IMG/VR virus record: IMGVR_UViG_3300022939_000191
Coordinates: 1 to 20,489 of that record
Strand: one strand, 5' to 3'
Source of the DNA: a virus
Length of the DNA: 20,489 nt
The translations under genes were made by a program, and so were the position numbers. Below the pieces are notes generated by a model. That model saw nothing but the letters and a program-made list of their open reading frames with translations, ran no database searches and was not told the DNA's origin. Positions 865 to 18,656 of the stretch are shown piece by piece (position 1 is the first letter of the stretch; each line of letters begins with the position of its first letter).

Positions 865-872
865 TATTTATT
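865..872 (-). promoter_or_regulatory. Possible T4-type late promoter for gene 19 (7 of 8 match)
   Basis: On the minus strand the gap between genes 18 and 19 contains AATAAATA, one mismatch from the T4 late promoter box TATAAATA recognised by gp55-RNA polymerase. It ends 24 bases before the gene 19 ATG. In AT-rich DNA a 7 of 8 match can arise by chance. Support comes from its position in a non-coding gap before a highly expressed gene and from two exact boxes elsewhere in the window. Confidence 0.4.
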
Positions 873-2904: not shown

Positions 2905-2912
2905 TATTTATA
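2905..2912 (-). promoter_or_regulatory. T4-type late promoter for gene 18
   Basis: The minus strand reads TATAAATA here, an exact match to the T4 late promoter box used by the gp55 sigma-like factor with the gp33/gp45 co-activators. It ends 55 bases before the gene 18 ATG and overlaps the last codons of gene 17. T4-like phages often have a late promoter before the sheath gene. Transcription factors are not encoded in this window, so their presence is assumed. Confidence 0.65.
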
Positions 2913-4962: not shown

Positions 4963-4967
4963 CACCT
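4963..4967 (-). promoter_or_regulatory. Ribosome-binding site deciding the gene 16 start
   Basis: AGGTG on the minus strand overlaps the TAG stop of gene 15 and lies five bases before ATG 4957. The spacing suits this ATG better than the GTG at 4960. The overlap implies that ribosomes ending gene 15 may reinitiate at gene 16. Confidence 0.6.
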
Positions 4968-5967
4968 ATTCATATACTTGTTCAAATTCTTCAATGAACC
5001 TATATGGTTCATCCTTGTATGGGTTTGGATTGTAGTTCGGTGGTTCCTCAAAGGCAACGGCAGGTGGTGTTATGTATCCAGAACCAGCATCGTCAATGAC
5101 AATTTTTGTCACAACTCCATTTGTAATTTCTGCGTGTGCTCTAGCGTTACCATCTATAGTTATATTAGGTGCGCTTTCTGTATATCCTTCTCCACCATAT
5201 TCTATTTCAATTTGACTAACAGAACCGTTTTCTATAGATGCAGTTGCTACTGGCAAAGTACCAGTGACCTCAAACCCAAACTTGATATGTGGGCCTTGCA
5301 TATCTGGATTTTCGTATGTTCTTGCAATAGACTTTTTGATGAAACCTTGGTTCTGTATAAACCCATAGTAATTAAGTTTCATCGTAAAAGTCAAAGACCA
5401 CACAATACTTTGTCTTGCCGCAAAATCTCCTTCATACTGATCTTCAAAAGTTACGCTGTCCAGTACAATTTTTATGTCTCTTTTGATTCCCATTTCTGGT
5501 AGATCATTAACCGTCACACTAAAATCTGGATTGAAGTATGGTAGAATCTGTTCTACAATCTGTAGTGCATCTTCTTGGTTTTTAGAAAAAATATATAATC
5601 CCATTTGCATATCATATGGAGTAGATACGAAAGACTTTCTATATGTGTTAGAATCATCTCCATCACCAACAGCAATGGTTTTTTGTACCTGTGATATTTT
5701 TCTACTGGGATCAAAATTAAATCCAAGAATCTCAAACCCCATTCTGGGGAGAGATATTGCTACCTCACCTCTGGATTCTGCATCAGGAACCTGTGCAATA
5801 CGAGACAGAAATTTTTGTTTTGGTGAGTAAGCAAGAGGCACACGAAGATTCTGAGCAACATCACCATCGGCATTTCTTCTTTCTATCTGAATATTATTAA
5901 AGATAGTGCCGAAAGCTATGATTGCTTTCTTTGTATGTTTGTGATAAAATTGTCTATTCTGAAACAT
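4966..5967 (-). CDS. gp15: Tail sheath stabiliser and completion protein gp15
   Basis: T4 gp15 forms a hexameric ring that caps the finished tail and joins it to the neck. This 333-residue product is longer than the T4 protein (272). Core similarity includes F-x-N-I-Q-I-x-R near 23-30, L-R-V-P-x-x-Y near 41-47, L-P-R-M-G near 73-77, Q-I-V-E-Q-I-L-P-Y-F near 136-145, and K-R-D-I-K-I-V-L with S-x-V-W-S-L-T-F near 162-194. After the core, residues about 242-307 carry two copies of an I-x-N-G-x-V-x-x-I ... G-x-G-Y-x-x-x-P beta-repeat absent from T4 gp15. The gene starts at an ATG that shares one base with the stop of gene 14 (TAATG), so translation is probably coupled. Confidence 0.95.
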   Translation of the reverse strand: MFQNRQFYHKHTKKAIIAFGTIFNNIQIERRNADGDVAQNLRVPLAYSPKQKFLSRIAQVPDAESRGEVAISLPRMGFEILGFNFDPSRKISQVQKTIAVGDGDDSNTYRKSFVSTPYDMQMGLYIFSKNQEDALQIVEQILPYFNPDFSVTVNDLPEMGIKRDIKIVLDSVTFEDQYEGDFAARQSIVWSLTFTMKLNYYGFIQNQGFIKKSIARTYENPDMQGPHIKFGFEVTGTLPVATASIENGSVSQIEIEYGGEGYTESAPNITIDGNARAHAEITNGVVTKIVIDDAGSGYITPPAVAFEEPPNYNPNPYKDEPYRFIEEFEQVYE

Positions 5968-11770: not shown

Positions 11771-11778
11771 TATTTATA
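11771..11778 (-). promoter_or_regulatory. T4-type late promoter for the minus-strand fibre cluster
   Basis: The minus strand reads TATAAATA, an exact T4 late promoter box, ending 23 bases before the ATG of the 108-residue beta protein. It lies in the only divergent intergenic gap of the window (11748-11792, 45 bases). From here a late transcript could run leftward through the fibre genes into gene 13. The other side of the gap starts the plus-strand glycosyltransferase island, for which I see no convincing promoter. Confidence 0.65.
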
Positions 11779-11792
11779 AGAAAAAGAAACTT

Positions 11793-12521
11793 ATGAAATC
11801 CGTGATAACATTGAAGTTTGGAGACAAATATAACTCCAACGATGTCAATTGTATTTATGATAATTCAAATATTTACAGACATGTCTGTATCACAGACGAT
11901 CCAGCAGGATTAAATCCCAACATAGAAATTATACCAATAGATTCTGATACCGATGGATGTTGGGAAAAAATAAAAATTTTCAAGAATGATTGGGTTGGGG
12001 ATTGCCTCTATCTAGACTTAGATGTTATAATACAGGGTAGTTTAGATAGGTTGTTTAATCACTGTTCAACACCGACAATATGTTATTGCTATTGGAAAAA
12101 TAAAGATACTCATGAAACCAAGAATAGAAGATACCAACGAGAGATGCCATACCTTGGAAATGGACTATCAACTGATCCGTGGATGCAAAAATGGAAAGGT
12201 CTTTATAATTCCAGCGTAATGGTTTGGAATGGGAATGATGCAAGATACATTTACGATCATTTTGAAAAAAATGATGAATATTTCATGACTAAATATTGTG
12301 GTGATGATAGATTTTTATATCATGAAAATATGTTTGACAATGTATTTCCAAAAGGATTAATCTATTCGTTGACGGGAGGCGTAGATTTAGACACGGACGT
12401 ATCTCCAAGAGGGTATCAAATAAAACCAGACTATCCAATAGTTTTGTTAAACGGTAACGAACCAAAAGAAGAATTGAGAAAAAAATATTATGATGCACTT
12501 TCTCTGCATGAAATGGGGTAA
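11793..12521 (+). CDS. GT-A glycosyltransferase-like protein, paralog 1
   Basis: This protein of 242 residues shows the signature set shared by four consecutive genes here: K-F-G-D-K-Y near 8-13, Y-L-D-L-D-V-I-I-Q near 73-81 with the metal-binding D-x-D at 75-77, and N-S-S-V-M-V-W near 139-145. A D-x-D preceded by hydrophobic residues and an early T-D-D-P motif fit GT8-like enzymes that transfer sugars from nucleotide-sugar donors. The expected C-terminal H-W-x-G metal-binding segment is replaced by L-L-N-G-N-E-P, so activity is less certain. It starts the plus-strand island, with a weak A-rich ribosome-binding site. Donor and acceptor are unknown. Decoration of virion fibres or host surface glycans is an inference. 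Confidence 0.75.
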   Translation: MKSVITLKFGDKYNSNDVNCIYDNSNIYRHVCITDDPAGLNPNIEIIPIDSDTDGCWEKIKIFKNDWVGDCLYLDLDVIIQGSLDRLFNHCSTPTICYCYWKNKDTHETKNRRYQREMPYLGNGLSTDPWMQKWKGLYNSSVMVWNGNDARYIYDHFEKNDEYFMTKYCGDDRFLYHENMFDNVFPKGLIYSLTGGVDLDTDVSPRGYQIKPDYPIVLLNGNEPKEELRKKYYDALSLHEMG

Positions 12522-15213
12522 CAAATACTCGGCAGAATATGTAAACAATTTACGCAAGATGGTTCAACAGAACTATACGAAACGCCACAAGTTTATTTGT
12601 TATACCGATGACCCAGATGGAATAGACAAAAATATAACCATTAGATCAATTCCCAGAGTTGACCCACTTCATCCAGACTATTGGTTTGGCAAAGAGAACT
12701 GGTGTTGGGATAGGTCGAAATTCTTAGTATTAAACTCTCACCGATGGTTAAAAACCAAGGGGCCTTTTTGTTATTTAGATTTGGATGTTGTAATTCAAAA
12801 CAACATCGATGAAATCTTTGATCTTTCATCTACTCCTCACATGTTGTATTCTCACTGGGAAGACCCCAGAGTACTAAAAGACAGACGTTTCACTGACATT
12901 AGAGGTAGTCTGTACAATTCTAGCGTGATGTTGTGGTGCAATGATGAGGGAGAAAAAATTTACAATGATGTTCTAAAACACAAGAACACCGTATTTAAAA
13001 CCTTTTGGAAGGGAACCGATAACTATTATCCATATCGTGAACACGATGTGGTTGGTGATAATTATTGGTCTTTCCTTCCGTCTGATTGGGTATACTCTTA
13101 CAATAGAGGACAACAATATCCAGATAATGTGACAGAACATCTGTATAGAGAAACGGCAAAGTTTTGTATATTTGATAACCCAGTTGTACCAAGCAAAGGT
13201 CAATTCATAAAACCACATGAAGTCAAAGACTATAACATTCTTATACACTGGCATGGGAAAACTGAGTTTGAAAAACTTTGGATGCCAAAGTTTCCAGAAA
13301 ATTTCTTTACTAAAAATAAACACACAGAAAGAATTGATACTCTGATAAATGATGCAAACTCTTACGATCCTTTTGTAAAACAGATTGAATCCAGACACCT
13401 AGAAACCATCAAAGAACTTGATGGAGACTTGATTTCAATGCACAAGAAATTCTTGGCAGACTTTCCCACCGATCCATTTTTGTTGGACGGAGATGAATCT
13501 TTATACTGGAACAAAGATGTAAATGGAATCTATGATTTCTATAAGGAAAGATATGTTTACAAGATGCACAAGGTTGTCTTTGATGTTCTTATTGATAAGT
13601 TCTACAAGGACTTACCAAAAATAAAAGAGGATTGGGAAAAGTACAACGACAAGTTTGATAGCATTAAGAACTGGTCTCAGTTTGATTCTATGACGGATGA
13701 CACACTAGAAAAAAACTACATGGATCAAAAGATCGTAAGCAGACTCAGACATATGTTGGATGAGAATGATCTGACATCTTTATCAAAACAAATGATAGAG
13801 TACTTCCCAGAGTTAGAAACTCTGAAAGAGGACACCATTCCAAATATCAAGGAAAAGTTCCCAGAGTTAGAAAAAGAAATTTCAGACTTCACATTTATTA
13901 GAAGAATAGAATCTCATCACAGAAAAATAATTAAAGAGATATATGAAACTGGTGATATGATTTCTATGCACAAAAAGTTTTTGGCTGATTTTCCAGAAGA
14001 CAAGATATTGCAGAACGGAGATCAATCACTGTATTGGAATAAAAACGTTGATGGAATCTATGACTTCTATAAAGAAAGGTATATATCCAGACAACACAAA
14101 ATTGTTTATGAAGAAGCAAAAGAATATGGGCCGGTGAGATACTTCTGGAACATCAGCTGGCTACAGTGTTTTGCACTGTATCGTAGACTGTGGCATAAAA
14201 ATGAACTGCCAAAAATAAAAAAAGAGTTCATGAAAAATGTTAGAATGTATGGGATGCAAAGATTATTCTGGGATGCAGATGACGGTGACATCCAGAGTTT
14301 ATACCGCAGATACTACATAGACAATCTAAAAGAGTTGTTCTACAAACAAGATTATGAAGCAGTATTTGAAAGACTGTATAACATCATGCCAAAGGATGAA
14401 CTTTTGGGAATCTTGAAACAAGATAACATATCAGACGATACTCTAGTTAAGTATTTCCAAATGCATGGGGAACAGTACTCTGATATGTATCGAGGACTAT
14501 ATGAAGATGGAGCCCCAGAAGGAGCCTTGGTTCAATTAAGTAGCAAAAGAAACGATACCAATGACCCGTACAATGATTTATTCTTAACAGAAAACGAACA
14601 TACAATCTCATCTATCAGAAAGATTTTCGATAGGTATAGAGTCAATTGGGTTACGCTTATGTGTGAATTGTCAGACCCTACCAAATCAGAACACTTTGAG
14701 GAAATCTGTAAATACTTCCAAGACAATGGGATTACCGTTACGGTTCAAACATATGATCAAACGTTTATCAAACCAACTTGGGTTGATAAAATAGAATATA
14801 TCGATCATCCGCAACAGACGGAAAACATTCCCATAGTACAAGAAACTATCGCCAGTGACATCCCCGTAAACTTGGAAACGTTAAAGATGTTCAAACAAAA
14901 GGACGAGGTTCGTAGACCAAAACCAAAGGCGAAGAAGTCCGAGGCAGTCTGGTGCGATGCAAGAAAGAGTGGATATTTTTATGTTAGTGCTGACAGTGGC
15001 GCATATCCGTGTGCCTATATAGCAAGAGATGTATTAGAAAGTAGATTATTACCCTATCATCCACTTGACTACACATACAATTCGCAGTATAATAGTTTAA
15101 AGAATTTTACTGTTGGCGAGATAATTTATAGTAACGACTTTGAAAATGTTAGTCAGAGTTTAAAAAGAAACCCCCTGACTATTTGTAATAAAAAATGCGG
15201 AGGGTGTAAGTGA
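12490..15213 (+). CDS. Multidomain protein: glycosyltransferase + helical W/Y repeats + radical-SAM/SPASM-like C-terminus
   Basis: The 907-residue protein has three parts. Residues 1-270 form a GT-A-like domain with K-W-G-N-K-Y (8-13), Y-L-D-L-D-V-V-I-Q (95-103), N-S-S-V-M-L-W (143-149), V-Y-S-Y-N-R-G (201-207) and I-H-W-H-G-K (262-267), so metal-binding D-x-D and final His are present. Residues about 299-610 contain repeats: two closely similar 70-residue copies (299-372 and 473-545) and two shorter relatives sharing F-W-[ND] ... L-Y-R-R-x-[WY] (551-568 and 592-609). Residues about 700-907 look like part of a radical-SAM barrel (S-D-P-x-x-x-x-H-F-E-E-I-C then G-I-T-V-T-V-Q-T) followed by a SPASM-like domain with Cys at 822, 841, 899, 903 and 906. 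No Cx3Cx2C lies ahead of the barrel remnant. Starting at ATG 12490 or 12493 preserves the N-terminal motif, overlapping paralog 1 by about 30 bases. Confidence 0.75.
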   Translation: MMHFLCMKWGNKYSAEYVNNLRKMVQQNYTKRHKFICYTDDPDGIDKNITIRSIPRVDPLHPDYWFGKENWCWDRSKFLVLNSHRWLKTKGPFCYLDLDVVIQNNIDEIFDLSSTPHMLYSHWEDPRVLKDRRFTDIRGSLYNSSVMLWCNDEGEKIYNDVLKHKNTVFKTFWKGTDNYYPYREHDVVGDNYWSFLPSDWVYSYNRGQQYPDNVTEHLYRETAKFCIFDNPVVPSKGQFIKPHEVKDYNILIHWHGKTEFEKLWMPKFPENFFTKNKHTERIDTLINDANSYDPFVKQIESRHLETIKELDGDLISMHKKFLADFPTDPFLLDGDESLYWNKDVNGIYDFYKERYVYKMHKVVFDVLIDKFYKDLPKIKEDWEKYNDKFDSIKNWSQFDSMTDDTLEKNYMDQKIVSRLRHMLDENDLTSLSKQMIEYFPELETLKEDTIPNIKEKFPELEKEISDFTFIRRIESHHRKIIKEIYETGDMISMHKKFLADFPEDKILQNGDQSLYWNKNVDGIYDFYKERYISRQHKIVYEEAKEYGPVRYFWNISWLQCFALYRRLWHKNELPKIKKEFMKNVRMYGMQRLFWDADDGDIQSLYRRYYIDNLKELFYKQDYEAVFERLYNIMPKDELLGILKQDNISDDTLVKYFQMHGEQYSDMYRGLYEDGAPEGALVQLSSKRNDTNDPYNDLFLTENEHTISSIRKIFDRYRVNWVTLMCELSDPTKSEHFEEICKYFQDNGITVTVQTYDQTFIKPTWVDKIEYIDHPQQTENIPIVQETIASDIPVNLETLKMFKQKDEVRRPKPKAKKSEAVWCDARKSGYFYVSADSGAYPCAYIARDVLESRLLPYHPLDYTYNSQYNSLKNFTVGEIIYSNDFENVSQSLKRNPLTICNKKCGGCK
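13384..13605 (+). repeat. Protein-level repeat unit A1 in the 907-residue protein
   Basis: This encodes residues about 299-372. It matches unit A2 (473-545) at I-E-S-x-H, then S-M-H-K-K-F-L-A-D-F-P, L-Y-W-N-K-x-V-x-G-I-Y-D-F-Y-K-E-R-Y. The DNA copies have diverged at third positions, so the duplication is not recent. Confidence 0.8.
13906..14124 (+). repeat. Protein-level repeat unit A2 in the 907-residue protein
   Basis: This encodes residues about 473-545, the second copy of the 70-residue module. The two copies are separated by about 100 residues of charged helical sequence containing Y-F-P-E-L-E and K-F-P-E-L-E echoes (438-443 and 456-461). Conservation of the W-N-K and Y-D-F-Y-K-E-R-Y elements in both copies suggests selection on them. 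Confidence 0.8.
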
Positions 15214-16699: not shown

Positions 16700-17369
16700 T
16701 TTTATCAACAACTATAAAAACTGGGGCGAAGCTCTACATATTATCGAAAAGAAAATGCCACATAAACTGGCAGACTTCAGACAATCTTTGTCGGAAAATA
16801 ATATGGAAGCTAGTGTCTGGTGTGTAGAAGAACTAAAAAAATATCTTGAGGAGTATTACACAAAAACTGGCAACCTAAGAATTCTAATTCTAAACTCTTG
16901 GTTGGGGATTCCTATGGTTCCTCTTCTCTGTGAAAATCTAGACGTATCACAGATTCACATGGTTGACTTGGATGAAGAGTCAATCGAACTGTCAAAAATT
17001 TTTCATAAACACTACGCCCAAGAAAAATTTGTCAACATCCGTCACTGGAATCTTGATGTACCATTTGAATTTGAAAACTTAAACAAGATTGAAGTTGATG
17101 TGGTAATTTGTATTCATACTGAACAGATGTATCCTCTGCAAGAACTCAATGGAAAAAATGCACAAGCGGTTTATGCAGTACAGAATTCAAATGTGGTAGA
17201 AGAAATGTACGGTATCAACTGTGTCGGATCAATTGAAGAGCTGAAAGAACAGATGGGAATATCCGAAACTGGATACGAAGGAACAAAACAACAGACATAC
17301 TTCTCTTGGGAAGGAAAGAAAGAATATGATCGTTACATGATCATCGGGCAGAGAGAGGGTTTCTTTTAA
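16686..17369 (+). CDS. SAM-dependent methyltransferase-like protein (class I fold)
   Basis: From ATG 16686 this protein has 227 residues. A class I methyltransferase fold is suggested by L-R-I-L-I-L-N-S-W-L-G-I-P (about 64-76, motif I, with a degenerate glycine loop), M-V-D-L-D-E-E-S-I-E-L-S (92-103, acidic end of strand 2 that would hold the SAM ribose), a W-N-L-D segment near 111-114, and V-D-V-V-I-C-I-H-T-E-Q-M (about 127-138, motif IV region). The C-terminal C-V-G-S-I-E-E-L-K and final Y-M-I-I-G-Q-R resemble phage methyltransferases in marine genomes. An upstream in-frame TTG at 16662 would add 8 residues, but GGGAAAAAGTGAAG immediately before ATG 16686 favours the latter. As the last island gene it may methylate a sugar. 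Target unknown. Confidence 0.65.
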   Translation: MLNSNFINNYKNWGEALHIIEKKMPHKLADFRQSLSENNMEASVWCVEELKKYLEEYYTKTGNLRILILNSWLGIPMVPLLCENLDVSQIHMVDLDEESIELSKIFHKHYAQEKFVNIRHWNLDVPFEFENLNKIEVDVVICIHTEQMYPLQELNGKNAQAVYAVQNSNVVEEMYGINCVGSIEELKEQMGISETGYEGTKQQTYFSWEGKKEYDRYMIIGQREGFF

Positions 17370-17971
17370 CCCTCGATGTCCTCTACCATCATTTCCCACA
17401 TAGTTTTGTCGGGAATAACAAACCCTATTGTTTGTCTTGGACTATTTGATCCAGCACAGTGCCAATAGGGTTCTTCCTCTTTACCACCATAATATCCAAC
17501 CTTTGCAGACCAACCAGGCTGGTCATTGATCGTTTTTATTTTACCATCTTCTAGGTGTTTAAAAAATCCACCCCCGTCACTATGAGACAGAAGTATGTTA
17601 TAGCCTGGACAATCCCAGTTATTGTGCCAAGACATAAATCCACCTACGGGATAATAAACGTGGACTGCGGTAAACTTTGCACCAAGATATGCTGATAGAT
17701 TTTTGCTGAAGTCTAAAGATTTTTCTCTGGCTTCTTTTGGAACCTTTGCAGTTAGGTGAAAGTCACATACCTTAGCAAACTCTGGCGGGCCTTTATGTTT
17801 GTTTCCCTTTGACATAACTTCATTAAGATATTCTTGAGAGCAATAATATTCCATATCATTGTCTCCAATCCGTCTCTCATCAAAAGATAGATCAAAGTTT
17901 TTTTTGTTGAACCAAACAATGTAGTCTTCAAGAATCTTATTTAATTCTTGATTGATGGTTATGGTTTGCAT
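17366..17971 (-). CDS. 2-oxoglutarate/Fe(II)-dependent oxygenase-like protein
   Basis: This 201-residue protein has the core of a phage 2OG-Fe(II) oxygenase: V-Y-Y-P-V-G-G-F-M-S-W-H-N-N-W-D-C-P-G (106-123), a G-G-G-F-F strand, Y-W-H-C-A-G-S (169-175) supplying the distal H171, and R179 positioned to bind the 2OG carboxylate. H116 is the likely first ligand. The classical H-x-D carboxylate position is N118, with D120 two residues later, so the metal site may be unusual or I may have mis-set the alignment. Such enzymes hydroxylate proteins, nucleic-acid bases or small molecules. It overlaps the upstream glycosyltransferase by 35 bases and meets the plus-strand methyltransferase tail-to-tail, sharing TTAA. 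Its substrate is unknown. Confidence 0.75.
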   Translation of the reverse strand: MQTITINQELNKILEDYIVWFNKKNFDLSFDERRIGDNDMEYYCSQEYLNEVMSKGNKHKGPPEFAKVCDFHLTAKVPKEAREKSLDFSKNLSAYLGAKFTAVHVYYPVGGFMSWHNNWDCPGYNILLSHSDGGGFFKHLEDGKIKTINDQPGWSAKVGYYGGKEEEPYWHCAGSNSPRQTIGFVIPDKTMWEMMVEDIEG

Positions 17972-18656
17972 TTAAAGTTACTCTTCCCAATGTATAATGA
18001 GTGATAACAACATCTTGTCCCACAAGTTCTTCTGGTCTTTGACCCATACAAAAGTTCCATCTGGCATCTGGTTCTGGGAACTCACCAACTTTTATTTTAT
18101 CTTTGTGGTCTGTTTTATTTAGTAGATACCACATAGTAAAGGTATCCCAAGGTTTCACCATGTGCGTGTATGGACTAGGATCATAAGATGGTTTTATTTG
18201 TTCGCAATAATACTCATACCAATCATCCATGAGGTCAACTGTTTTTGCGTTCTTTTTATAAACAAAAACACCACAGTGATAAACCATTTCTTCCGTATCA
18301 TTTAGTTTTGTTATTTTAGCATTGTATGGACGATTTTTGGTAAAGATAATATCGTTGTTGCCTATAAAACCAAAGACATCTTTGATATCTTCATGTTGAA
18401 TGTAAGTATCACAATCAATATACATGGTGATATCATATGGAGTTCTTGACAAAGCCCACAACTTTGTTCTAACATGATTGGGGATGTCAGTTATAATATG
18501 ATCAAAGATTTCGTGGTCTTCTTCTTCAATCCATTCTTCTAGTGCGAATAAAGTTATTCTTGCTTCTGGATTAAAGTCGAGGAGCGAAAGAGCTGACTCT
18601 TTGGCGGCGAGATAATATTCTTTTCTCACCGTTGCAACGTATAGATATCCGTTCAT
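17937..18656 (-). CDS. GT-A glycosyltransferase-like protein (different subfamily)
   Basis: The 239-residue protein starts M-N-G-Y-L-Y-V-A-T-V-R-K-E-Y-Y-L-A-A, typical of the first strand and helix of GT-A folds. It has M-Y-I-D-C-D-T-Y-I at 78-86 with D-x-D at 81-83, V-Y-H-C-G-V-F-V-Y (125-133) and a late I-T-H-Y-T-L-G-R (about 218-225) that could supply the metal-binding His. It lacks the K-W-G-x-K-Y and D-L-D-V-I-I-Q signatures of the plus-strand paralogs, so it is only distantly related to them. The ATG overlaps the stop of the upstream gene (ATGA). Grouped with the 2OG oxygenase gene, it may take part in modification of surface or virion glycans; donor and acceptor are unknown. Confidence 0.75.
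   Translation of the reverse strand: MNGYLYVATVRKEYYLAAKESALSLLDFNPEARITLFALEEWIEEEDHEIFDHIITDIPNHVRTKLWALSRTPYDITMYIDCDTYIQHEDIKDVFGFIGNNDIIFTKNRPYNAKITKLNDTEEMVYHCGVFVYKKNAKTVDLMDDWYEYYCEQIKPSYDPSPYTHMVKPWDTFTMWYLLNKTDHKDKIKVGEFPEPDARWNFCMGQRPEELVGQDVVITHYTLGRVTLNANHNHQSRIK

Follow-up and report, generated by a model that had tools for sequence, protein, structure and literature searches.

Glycosyltransferases and radical S-adenosylmethionine (SAM) enzymes occur together in T4-like marine phages. In pelagimyophages, a host recognition cluster located among structural genes contains glycosyltransferases and radical-SAM cassettes, and was proposed to modify the host O-chain (PMC7029224). The main text of that study does not use the word SPASM, and the parts of it consulted do not mention a glycosyltransferase fused to a radical-SAM-like domain. 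According to two further studies, T4-like marine genomes are rich in radical-SAM genes, with 12 in one genome (PMC5332604), and both radical-SAM and glycosyltransferase genes are found among marine phage genes (PMC7150976). Here, we describe P0001, a 907-residue viral protein in which a glycosyltransferase (GT) domain and a radical-SAM/SPASM-like C-terminal domain (C-domain) are joined. Its gene is at positions 12490-15213 (+) of the window, that is, of the whole stretch of 20,489 nucleotides analysed (IMG/VR virus record IMGVR_UViG_3300022939_000191, positions 1 to 20,489).

P0001 shares with the GT8/GT24 enzymes (glycogenin, LgtC, the catalytic domain of UGGT) the GT-A fold, a D-x-D and a C-terminal H-x-x-G. 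However, the GT domain of a modelled relative is only 7-18% identical to them among the matches listed, and that of P0001 is fused to helical and radical-SAM-like parts. The C-domain appears to have the barrel-then-SPASM order of SuiB, anSME, PqqE, CteB and TIGR04317, a group that provides the best structural matches of residues 673-896. In contrast to SuiB-type maturases, the fused proteins have no CX3CX2C at the barrel start (51/51), have a partial barrel and carry a glycosyltransferase. The same phage genomes also encode twitch radical-SAM proteins (NF033640), composed of an Fe-S domain and a radical-SAM barrel; unlike the C-domain, these have an intact CX3CX2C and an N-terminal Fe-S domain, and they give no useful profile match with it.

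With moderate confidence, we propose that P0001 combines an active GT-A glycosyltransferase with a radical-inactive, SPASM-derived module that recognises the acceptor, within a cassette directed at the host surface. In the open-access literature, searched by title and start of abstract (subscription papers and preprints lying outside), we found no description of a glycosyltransferase fused to a radical-SAM/SPASM part without CX3CX2C, nor of any radical-SAM pseudoenzyme. Non-catalytic members are well known in kinases and other enzyme classes.

Architecture of P0001 and its relatives

The P0001 frame is uninterrupted from ATG to stop. Because a 100% identical protein is encoded by five further viral contigs (L005, L006, L007, L008, L022), this frame is not an assembly accident. 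IMG/VR was searched using P0001, alignments and relatives as queries. The successive searches gave 62, 69, 80 (best of 88), 80 (best of 98) and 3 loci, and these sets have contigs in common. The loci listed were collapsed to 51 distinct complete proteins having both GT and C-domain, P0001 included; proteins cut by contig ends were excluded and identical ones merged. Since the presence of both domains was the entry condition, the common domain order of the 51 follows from selection; motifs and lengths were not so selected. The features of the gene are as follows.

12490..15213 (+), complete gene, 907 residues, running from a GT-A glycosyltransferase through a helical insert and a partial radical-SAM-like barrel to a SPASM-like end; one of 51 distinct complete fused proteins
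12490..13281 (+), predicted GT-A (GT8/GT24-like) domain, residues 1-264; phrog_1962 (glycosyltransferase) E 0.003; model of relative L111 matches UGGT, glycogenin and LgtC at Z 15-16
12778..12786 (+), D97-x-D99 (D97-L-D99); 51/51
13246..13257 (+), H253-W-H-G256; H253, W254 and G256 51/51, H255 39/51
13282..14499 (+), all-helical insert, residues 265-670, of variable length and absent in 6/51; blocks within 301-620 modelled at pLDDT (predicted local distance difference test) 65-92
13372..13584 (+), first copy of a duplicated segment (residues 295-365); not present in the 832-838- and 734-735-residue relatives that were aligned
13894..14112 (+), second copy of this segment (residues 469-541); from self-comparison
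14500..14829 (+), partial radical-SAM-like barrel without CX3CX2C, residues 671-780; pLDDT 55-89 by blocks, top matches SuiB, BtrN, PqqE, SpeY
14551..14577 (+), N688-D-T....N-D696, where CX3CX2C would be expected (placed in the alignment by eye); N688 and D689 51/51, N695 49/51, D696 47/51
14935..15210 (+), SPASM-like end with invariant C822, C841, C899, C903, C906; PF13186 in relatives, not in P0001 itself

The original prediction, made by eye from the sequence, had read this frame as one continuous 907-residue protein of three parts. Both the frame, conserved among the 51 proteins, and the three-part organisation hold, and no full-length relative turned up that is annotated as belonging to a single simple family. 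In Pfam and PHROGs, no family spans the full length of P0001; the NCBIfam scan covered C-domains. The gene was compared with nine relatives over five parts. Synonymous divergence (dS) had reached saturation in 31 of these 45 comparisons, among them the nine made over the helical part; the remaining 14 gave ratios of non-synonymous to synonymous divergence (dN/dS) of 0.013-0.203, which are rough because most dS values exceed 1. At L025:203-2940, a fused-type gene is found in two overlapping frames (701 and 211 residues), reflecting either a sequencing error or a true split.

The glycosyltransferase domain

A metal-binding D-x-D and a C-terminal H-x-x-G are hallmarks of GT8/GT24-like enzymes. 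Both motifs, already singled out in the original prediction as D-x-D and terminal H-W-H-G, are intact: D97, D99, H253, W254 and G256 are invariant in all 51 proteins, and H255 is present in 39. The structural evidence comes from L111, a 465-residue relative, 48% identical to P0001, that has the GT and C-domains without the insert. The L111 model, obtained with a deeper alignment, has a mean pLDDT of 79, with GT blocks mostly at 70-95 and dips to 50; in the first P0001 model, the GT domain of P0001 itself has low confidence. The L111 domain matches UGGT, glycogenin, LARGE1, GlyE and LgtC with Z scores of 15-16 (best 16.3) over 196-241 aligned residues, at 7-18% identity among the 50 matches shown. 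The matches listed for the whole L111 model were all taken up by this domain. None of the Pfam glycosyltransferase families, Glyco_transf_8 (PF01501) included, matches P0001 at E 1; the protein is therefore assigned to the GT8/GT24-like fold and not to the Pfam family. On the basis of the modelled relative, residues 1-264 are a GT-A domain of GT8/GT24-like type.

A C-domain resembling a radical-SAM barrel followed by SPASM

Comparison of the P0001 model with known folds gave radical-SAM enzymes in all of the first 14 rows (Z 5.8-8.2), with alignments within residues 665-907. SuiB ranks first (Z 8.2, root-mean-square deviation 3.5, 144 residues aligned), followed by BtrN (7.9), PqqE (7.6) and SpeY (7.3), then by 5why, which we take to be CteB, BlsE, anSME and viperin. 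After these come a permease domain (Z 5.8) and asparaginases and response regulators (Z about 5), over residues 673-776. With Foldseek, the first five matches of the P0001 model are all SuiB (E 0.12-0.21). In a separate search, three viral models labelled radical-SAM match with probabilities of 0.92-1.00 (E 0.05-0.55).

At the sequence level, L111 covers positions 1-66 of 67 of PF13186 with 22.7 bits (cut-off 21.5). A protein of contig G006 reaches 21.4 bits, and passes the cut-off at 22.2 when its neighbours in frame are included; its cut-out C-domain scores 19.0. Six of eight C-domains match PF13186 at E 1 or better, one of them above the cut-off, and seven of 13 match at E 5. For PF04055, the best match among 13 C-domains has E 0.67 and occurs in a single one, and E is 0.09 in L238, one of the stand-alone proteins described below; NF033640 is not among the matches of the C-domains (13 members; 8 proteins). 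No single line is sufficient. Because sequence profile, structure and domain order converge, we read the C-domain as resembling a partial radical-SAM-like barrel followed by SPASM. The likeness proposed originally is thus supported, mostly through relatives (PF13186 in 6/8; fold comparison 14/14).

What the original prediction had missed is that the SAM-cluster motif is gone. CX3CX2C is found at the barrel start in none of the 51 fused proteins, hence canonical radical-SAM chemistry is impossible for the barrel part; it is likewise found in none of 34 stand-alone homologs. The radical-SAM consensus at this place is ELTNKCN..C..C. The relatives have [E/Q]-x-[S/T]...ND(T/S), which by eye looks like this consensus with the cysteines replaced. 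The sole CX3CX2C of P0001 is the SPASM tail, C899-C906; sequence alone would allow C899, C903 and C906 a role in SAM binding, but their position at the SPASM end argues against it. On the other hand, C822, C841, C899, C903 and C906 are invariant in 51/51, as is H857. The classical SPASM set has seven cysteines; the five kept here probably bind an auxiliary metal cluster.

Stand-alone modules and the history of the fusion

In sister phages, the place of the C-domain is taken by a stand-alone protein of 494-512 residues that we named SEP (34 distinct sequences, for instance L220:7392-8897 and L267:7371-8858). SEP sits after the glycosyltransferase GT2 and, where the contig reaches it, before the glycosyltransferase GT3. 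Profile comparison relates the C-domain to SEP with 99.4% probability (E 5.5e-22, 217 columns). SEP and the fused protein thus share a homologous C-domain at an equivalent gene position, whereas SEP has a fuller barrel, 32 of 34 SEP proteins lack the terminal cysteines, and TPN replaces D-x-D near its place in 34/34, with some D-x-D elsewhere in residues 81-110 in nine. One SEP protein, P0006, matches the radical-SAM maturase model TIGR04317 (E 3.4e-5) over the barrel end and SPASM. The SEP N-terminal domain shows a weak GT-A likeness to GT2 (72% probability, E 3.3e-5, 104 columns). Judging by these motifs, SEP proteins are possibly inactive in both halves, GT-A-like and barrel.

For the GT2 tree, 235 complete GT2 domains were reduced to 84 distinct rows and rooted on five GT3 paralogs. 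The 47 fused rows all fall in one clade (99/94), as do L025, which is broken, and L049, which is truncated. In the remaining 35 rows, GT2 is followed by SEP (33) or directly by GT3 (2). L025, labelled split, is a broken fused-type gene and L049 is cut short, which leaves 33 truly split rows. When whole SEP C-parts were aligned, the SEP barrel fell on the GT domain; the alignment kept therefore includes the SEP SPASM parts only. Clade and split forms are most simply explained by one fusion of neighbouring genes; the direction, fusion or fission, is not proven because the deepest forks of the GT2 tree are not resolved. The earlier idea of a fusion of three phage genes is better put as the joining of two adjacent genes, separated by a helical stretch whose length varies.

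This arrangement, fused in one clade and neighbouring as GT2-SEP-GT3 in sister lineages, points to GT and C-domain belonging together. A functional partnership is suggested because the cysteine pattern is uniform in the 51 proteins and sister phages carry both parts as neighbouring genes. In cultured phages, tblastn with P0001 matched seven records, in the GT part only; the L111 C-domain gave seven records, all at E 0.5 or worse, and SEP P0006 and the GT2 of L267 gave no match. A pattern scan for P0001 in the genomes of bacteria and archaea, which detects close relatives only, found no relative. Some split-type phages have a gene resembling thymidylate synthase ThyX, by eye, between SEP and GT3 (L260:9055-9726, L267:9051-9764).

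A helical insert of variable length

The 51 fused proteins fall into length classes of 438-478 (6), 731-737 (11), 807-808 (2), 832-838 (17) and 907-912 (15) residues. In the six shortest, the GT domain is directly joined to the C-domain. The helical part is therefore an insert of variable length, and repeats are not a defining part of the protein. The original estimate of about 310 residues of repeats was also too generous. A single pair of segments, residues 295-365 and 469-541 (63% identical), stands out in self-comparison, with a score of 275, where 12 shuffles gave 32-54; the scores that come after it are 60, just above the shuffle range, and 48, inside it. Among the matches listed by whole-model fold searches, none is credible for the helical part, which was not searched alone, and a new fold is not implied.

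In five of the six shortest proteins (L204, L205, L206, L210, L212; 438-443 residues), the called start falls after the first GT strand. The missing 24-27 codons are open in frame upstream and contain no ATG, GTG or TTG, so that the true start of these proteins is unsure; they may begin at a non-standard codon (ATT, ATA or CTG).

Proposed mode of action

In the proposed mechanism, the GT-A domain would use a nucleotide-sugar and a metal held at D97/D99, as expected for its fold. The module, lacking the three SAM-cluster cysteines, would do no radical chemistry, and its five kept cysteines would probably hold an auxiliary metal cluster. Most likely, it would recognise the acceptor, be it a glycan, peptide or protein, and position it for the transferase, with the helical insert serving as a spacer or scaffold free to vary in length. 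P0001 would act together with the other plus-strand transferases of its cassette, most likely on host-surface glycans and possibly on virion proteins. If so, the fused protein would allow the question of what SPASM-type domains recognise to be addressed directly, and would provide a clue to the targets of glycosyltransferase cassettes in marine T4-like phages.

Genomic setting

The P0001 gene belongs to a plus-strand cassette, overlapping its two neighbours.

11793..12521 (+), GT1, paralogous glycosyltransferase; phrog_1962 E 1.1e-15, E 1.1e-12 to P0001, 32-nucleotide overlap with the P0001 gene
15210..16028 (+), GT3, paralogous glycosyltransferase; E 4.6e-51 to P0001, phrog_1962 weak (E 0.031), 4-nucleotide overlap with the P0001 gene
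16025..16699 (+), GT4, paralogous glycosyltransferase; phrog_1962 E 2.4e-9, E 1.9e-22 to P0001
16662..17369 (+), methyltransferase/spermidine-synthase-like, last cassette gene; PF01564 E 0.0072, below its cut-off

The cassette is located inside a T4-like structural region on the minus strand, whose genes encode tail tube, sheath, terminase, sheath stabiliser, neck and tail-fibre-like proteins. The terminase is about 50% identical to its nearest relatives, from cyanophages. By the T4 consensus, TATAAATA is late-promoter-like; TATAAATA/AATAAATA is found at 11771-11778 (-), 2905-2912 (-) and 865-872 (-), just upstream of minus-strand structural genes. Across 12 loci, two of them near-identical, TATAAATA precedes the structural gene on the minus strand in eight (11771 in the window) and precedes the cassette on the plus strand in none. 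The window holds five such matches where 3.0 are expected, and 21 of 100 shuffles reach five, so that their number is not clearly above chance.

Intact radical-SAM genes occur elsewhere in the same genomes. Five of ten contigs searched (G001-G005), each of at least 116 kb and carrying the fused gene, have 7-9 radical-SAM matches at E 1 or better, and three of eight further contigs (G011, G012, G014) have 7-10. The four array proteins scanned are all N_Twi_rSAM (NF033640; 321-410 bits). Array and glycosyltransferase cassette are about 47 kb apart in G001, and G012 has an array although no C-domain lies between its GT2 and GT3. In the array regions of five contigs, no convincing precursor peptide was found; the only short open reading frame outside longer ones that is common to three contigs encodes a basic protein of 75-83 residues without precursor features, located between twitch radical-SAM genes (L198:4735-4962, L199:3311-3544, L202:8845-9096), and the one scanned has no NCBIfam match. 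Clusters of intact twitch radical-SAM genes are seen, for example, in L194 (G001:135500-152500), L196-L199 and L202; their neighbours look by eye like GNAT, 2-oxoglutarate (2OG)-oxygenase, nucleotide-sugar dehydrogenase and desaturase genes.

Alternative explanations

Several results weigh against an acceptor-recognising, SPASM-derived module. The matches to radical-SAM structures are of medium strength, with Z not exceeding 8.2 and every Foldseek E at or above 0.1, the SPASM end of P0001 is modelled at pLDDT 29-55, and PF13186 gives no match in P0001 itself. Profiles built from the C-domain and SEP alignments and run against PDB sequences returned no radical-SAM chain, and profile comparison with the intact phage twitch radical-SAM proteins nothing useful (10.9%, 2.4%). 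TIGR04317 is matched at E 1 or better by just one of 14 SEP C-parts, whereas three weakly resemble dihydroorotate dehydrogenase models (best 0.0024), which describe a different barrel enzyme. The terminal cysteine group is lost in 32/34 SEP proteins, three cysteines being left in most, so that some versions of the module do without the metal site. The C-terminus could be a structural tail, made of a zinc or other metal domain merely similar to SPASM and of a Rossmann-like half-barrel of other origin. The middling scores, the unrelated beta-alpha folds that come next over 673-776 and the invariance of H857 would all suit such a tail, which we nevertheless judge improbable: PF13186 exceeds its cut-off in two relatives (L111, G006), the barrel-then-SPASM order is that of SuiB and anSME, and SEP provides a link to TIGR04317.

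Other readings keep the domains and change the target. That P0001 decorates the tail-fibre or neck proteins whose genes flank the cassette is suggested by the position of the cassette among tail-fibre-like and neck genes, yet the cassette is oriented opposite to the structural genes and lacks the plus-strand TATAAATA (0/12, against 8/12 on the minus strand), an argument tempered by the near-chance number of matches in the window; we consider this unlikely, though the least so of the alternatives. The module could also bind a phage or host peptide that the intact twitch enzymes modify and the GT domain glycosylates, giving a glycopeptide akin to ribosomally synthesised and post-translationally modified peptides. 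The arrays of eight contigs, the N_Twi_rSAM identity of the four proteins scanned and the action of the solved SPASM relatives SuiB and anSME on peptides would all fit, but the missing precursor, the 47 kb separating array and cassette in G001 and the presence of an array in G012 without the C-domain make this a rather poor prospect. Equally doubtful is the broader proposal that disarmed radical-SAM/SPASM modules, as partners encoded next door in some phages or fused in others, act as acceptor arms with which phages glycosylate a peptide or protein also modified by their own intact arrays. An acceptor-recognising module serving a cassette that acts on the host surface thus remains the reading we favour.

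Minor observations in the window

Two minus-strand genes at 17366-18656 converge with the cassette. One is 2OG-oxygenase-like by eye, with no credible family match, and the other is weakly GT8-like (PF01501 E 0.021). The sheath stabiliser homolog (phrog_227), encoded at 4966-5967 (-), is extended at its C-terminus by a stretch of approximately residues 241-305, which several other structural-protein families match.

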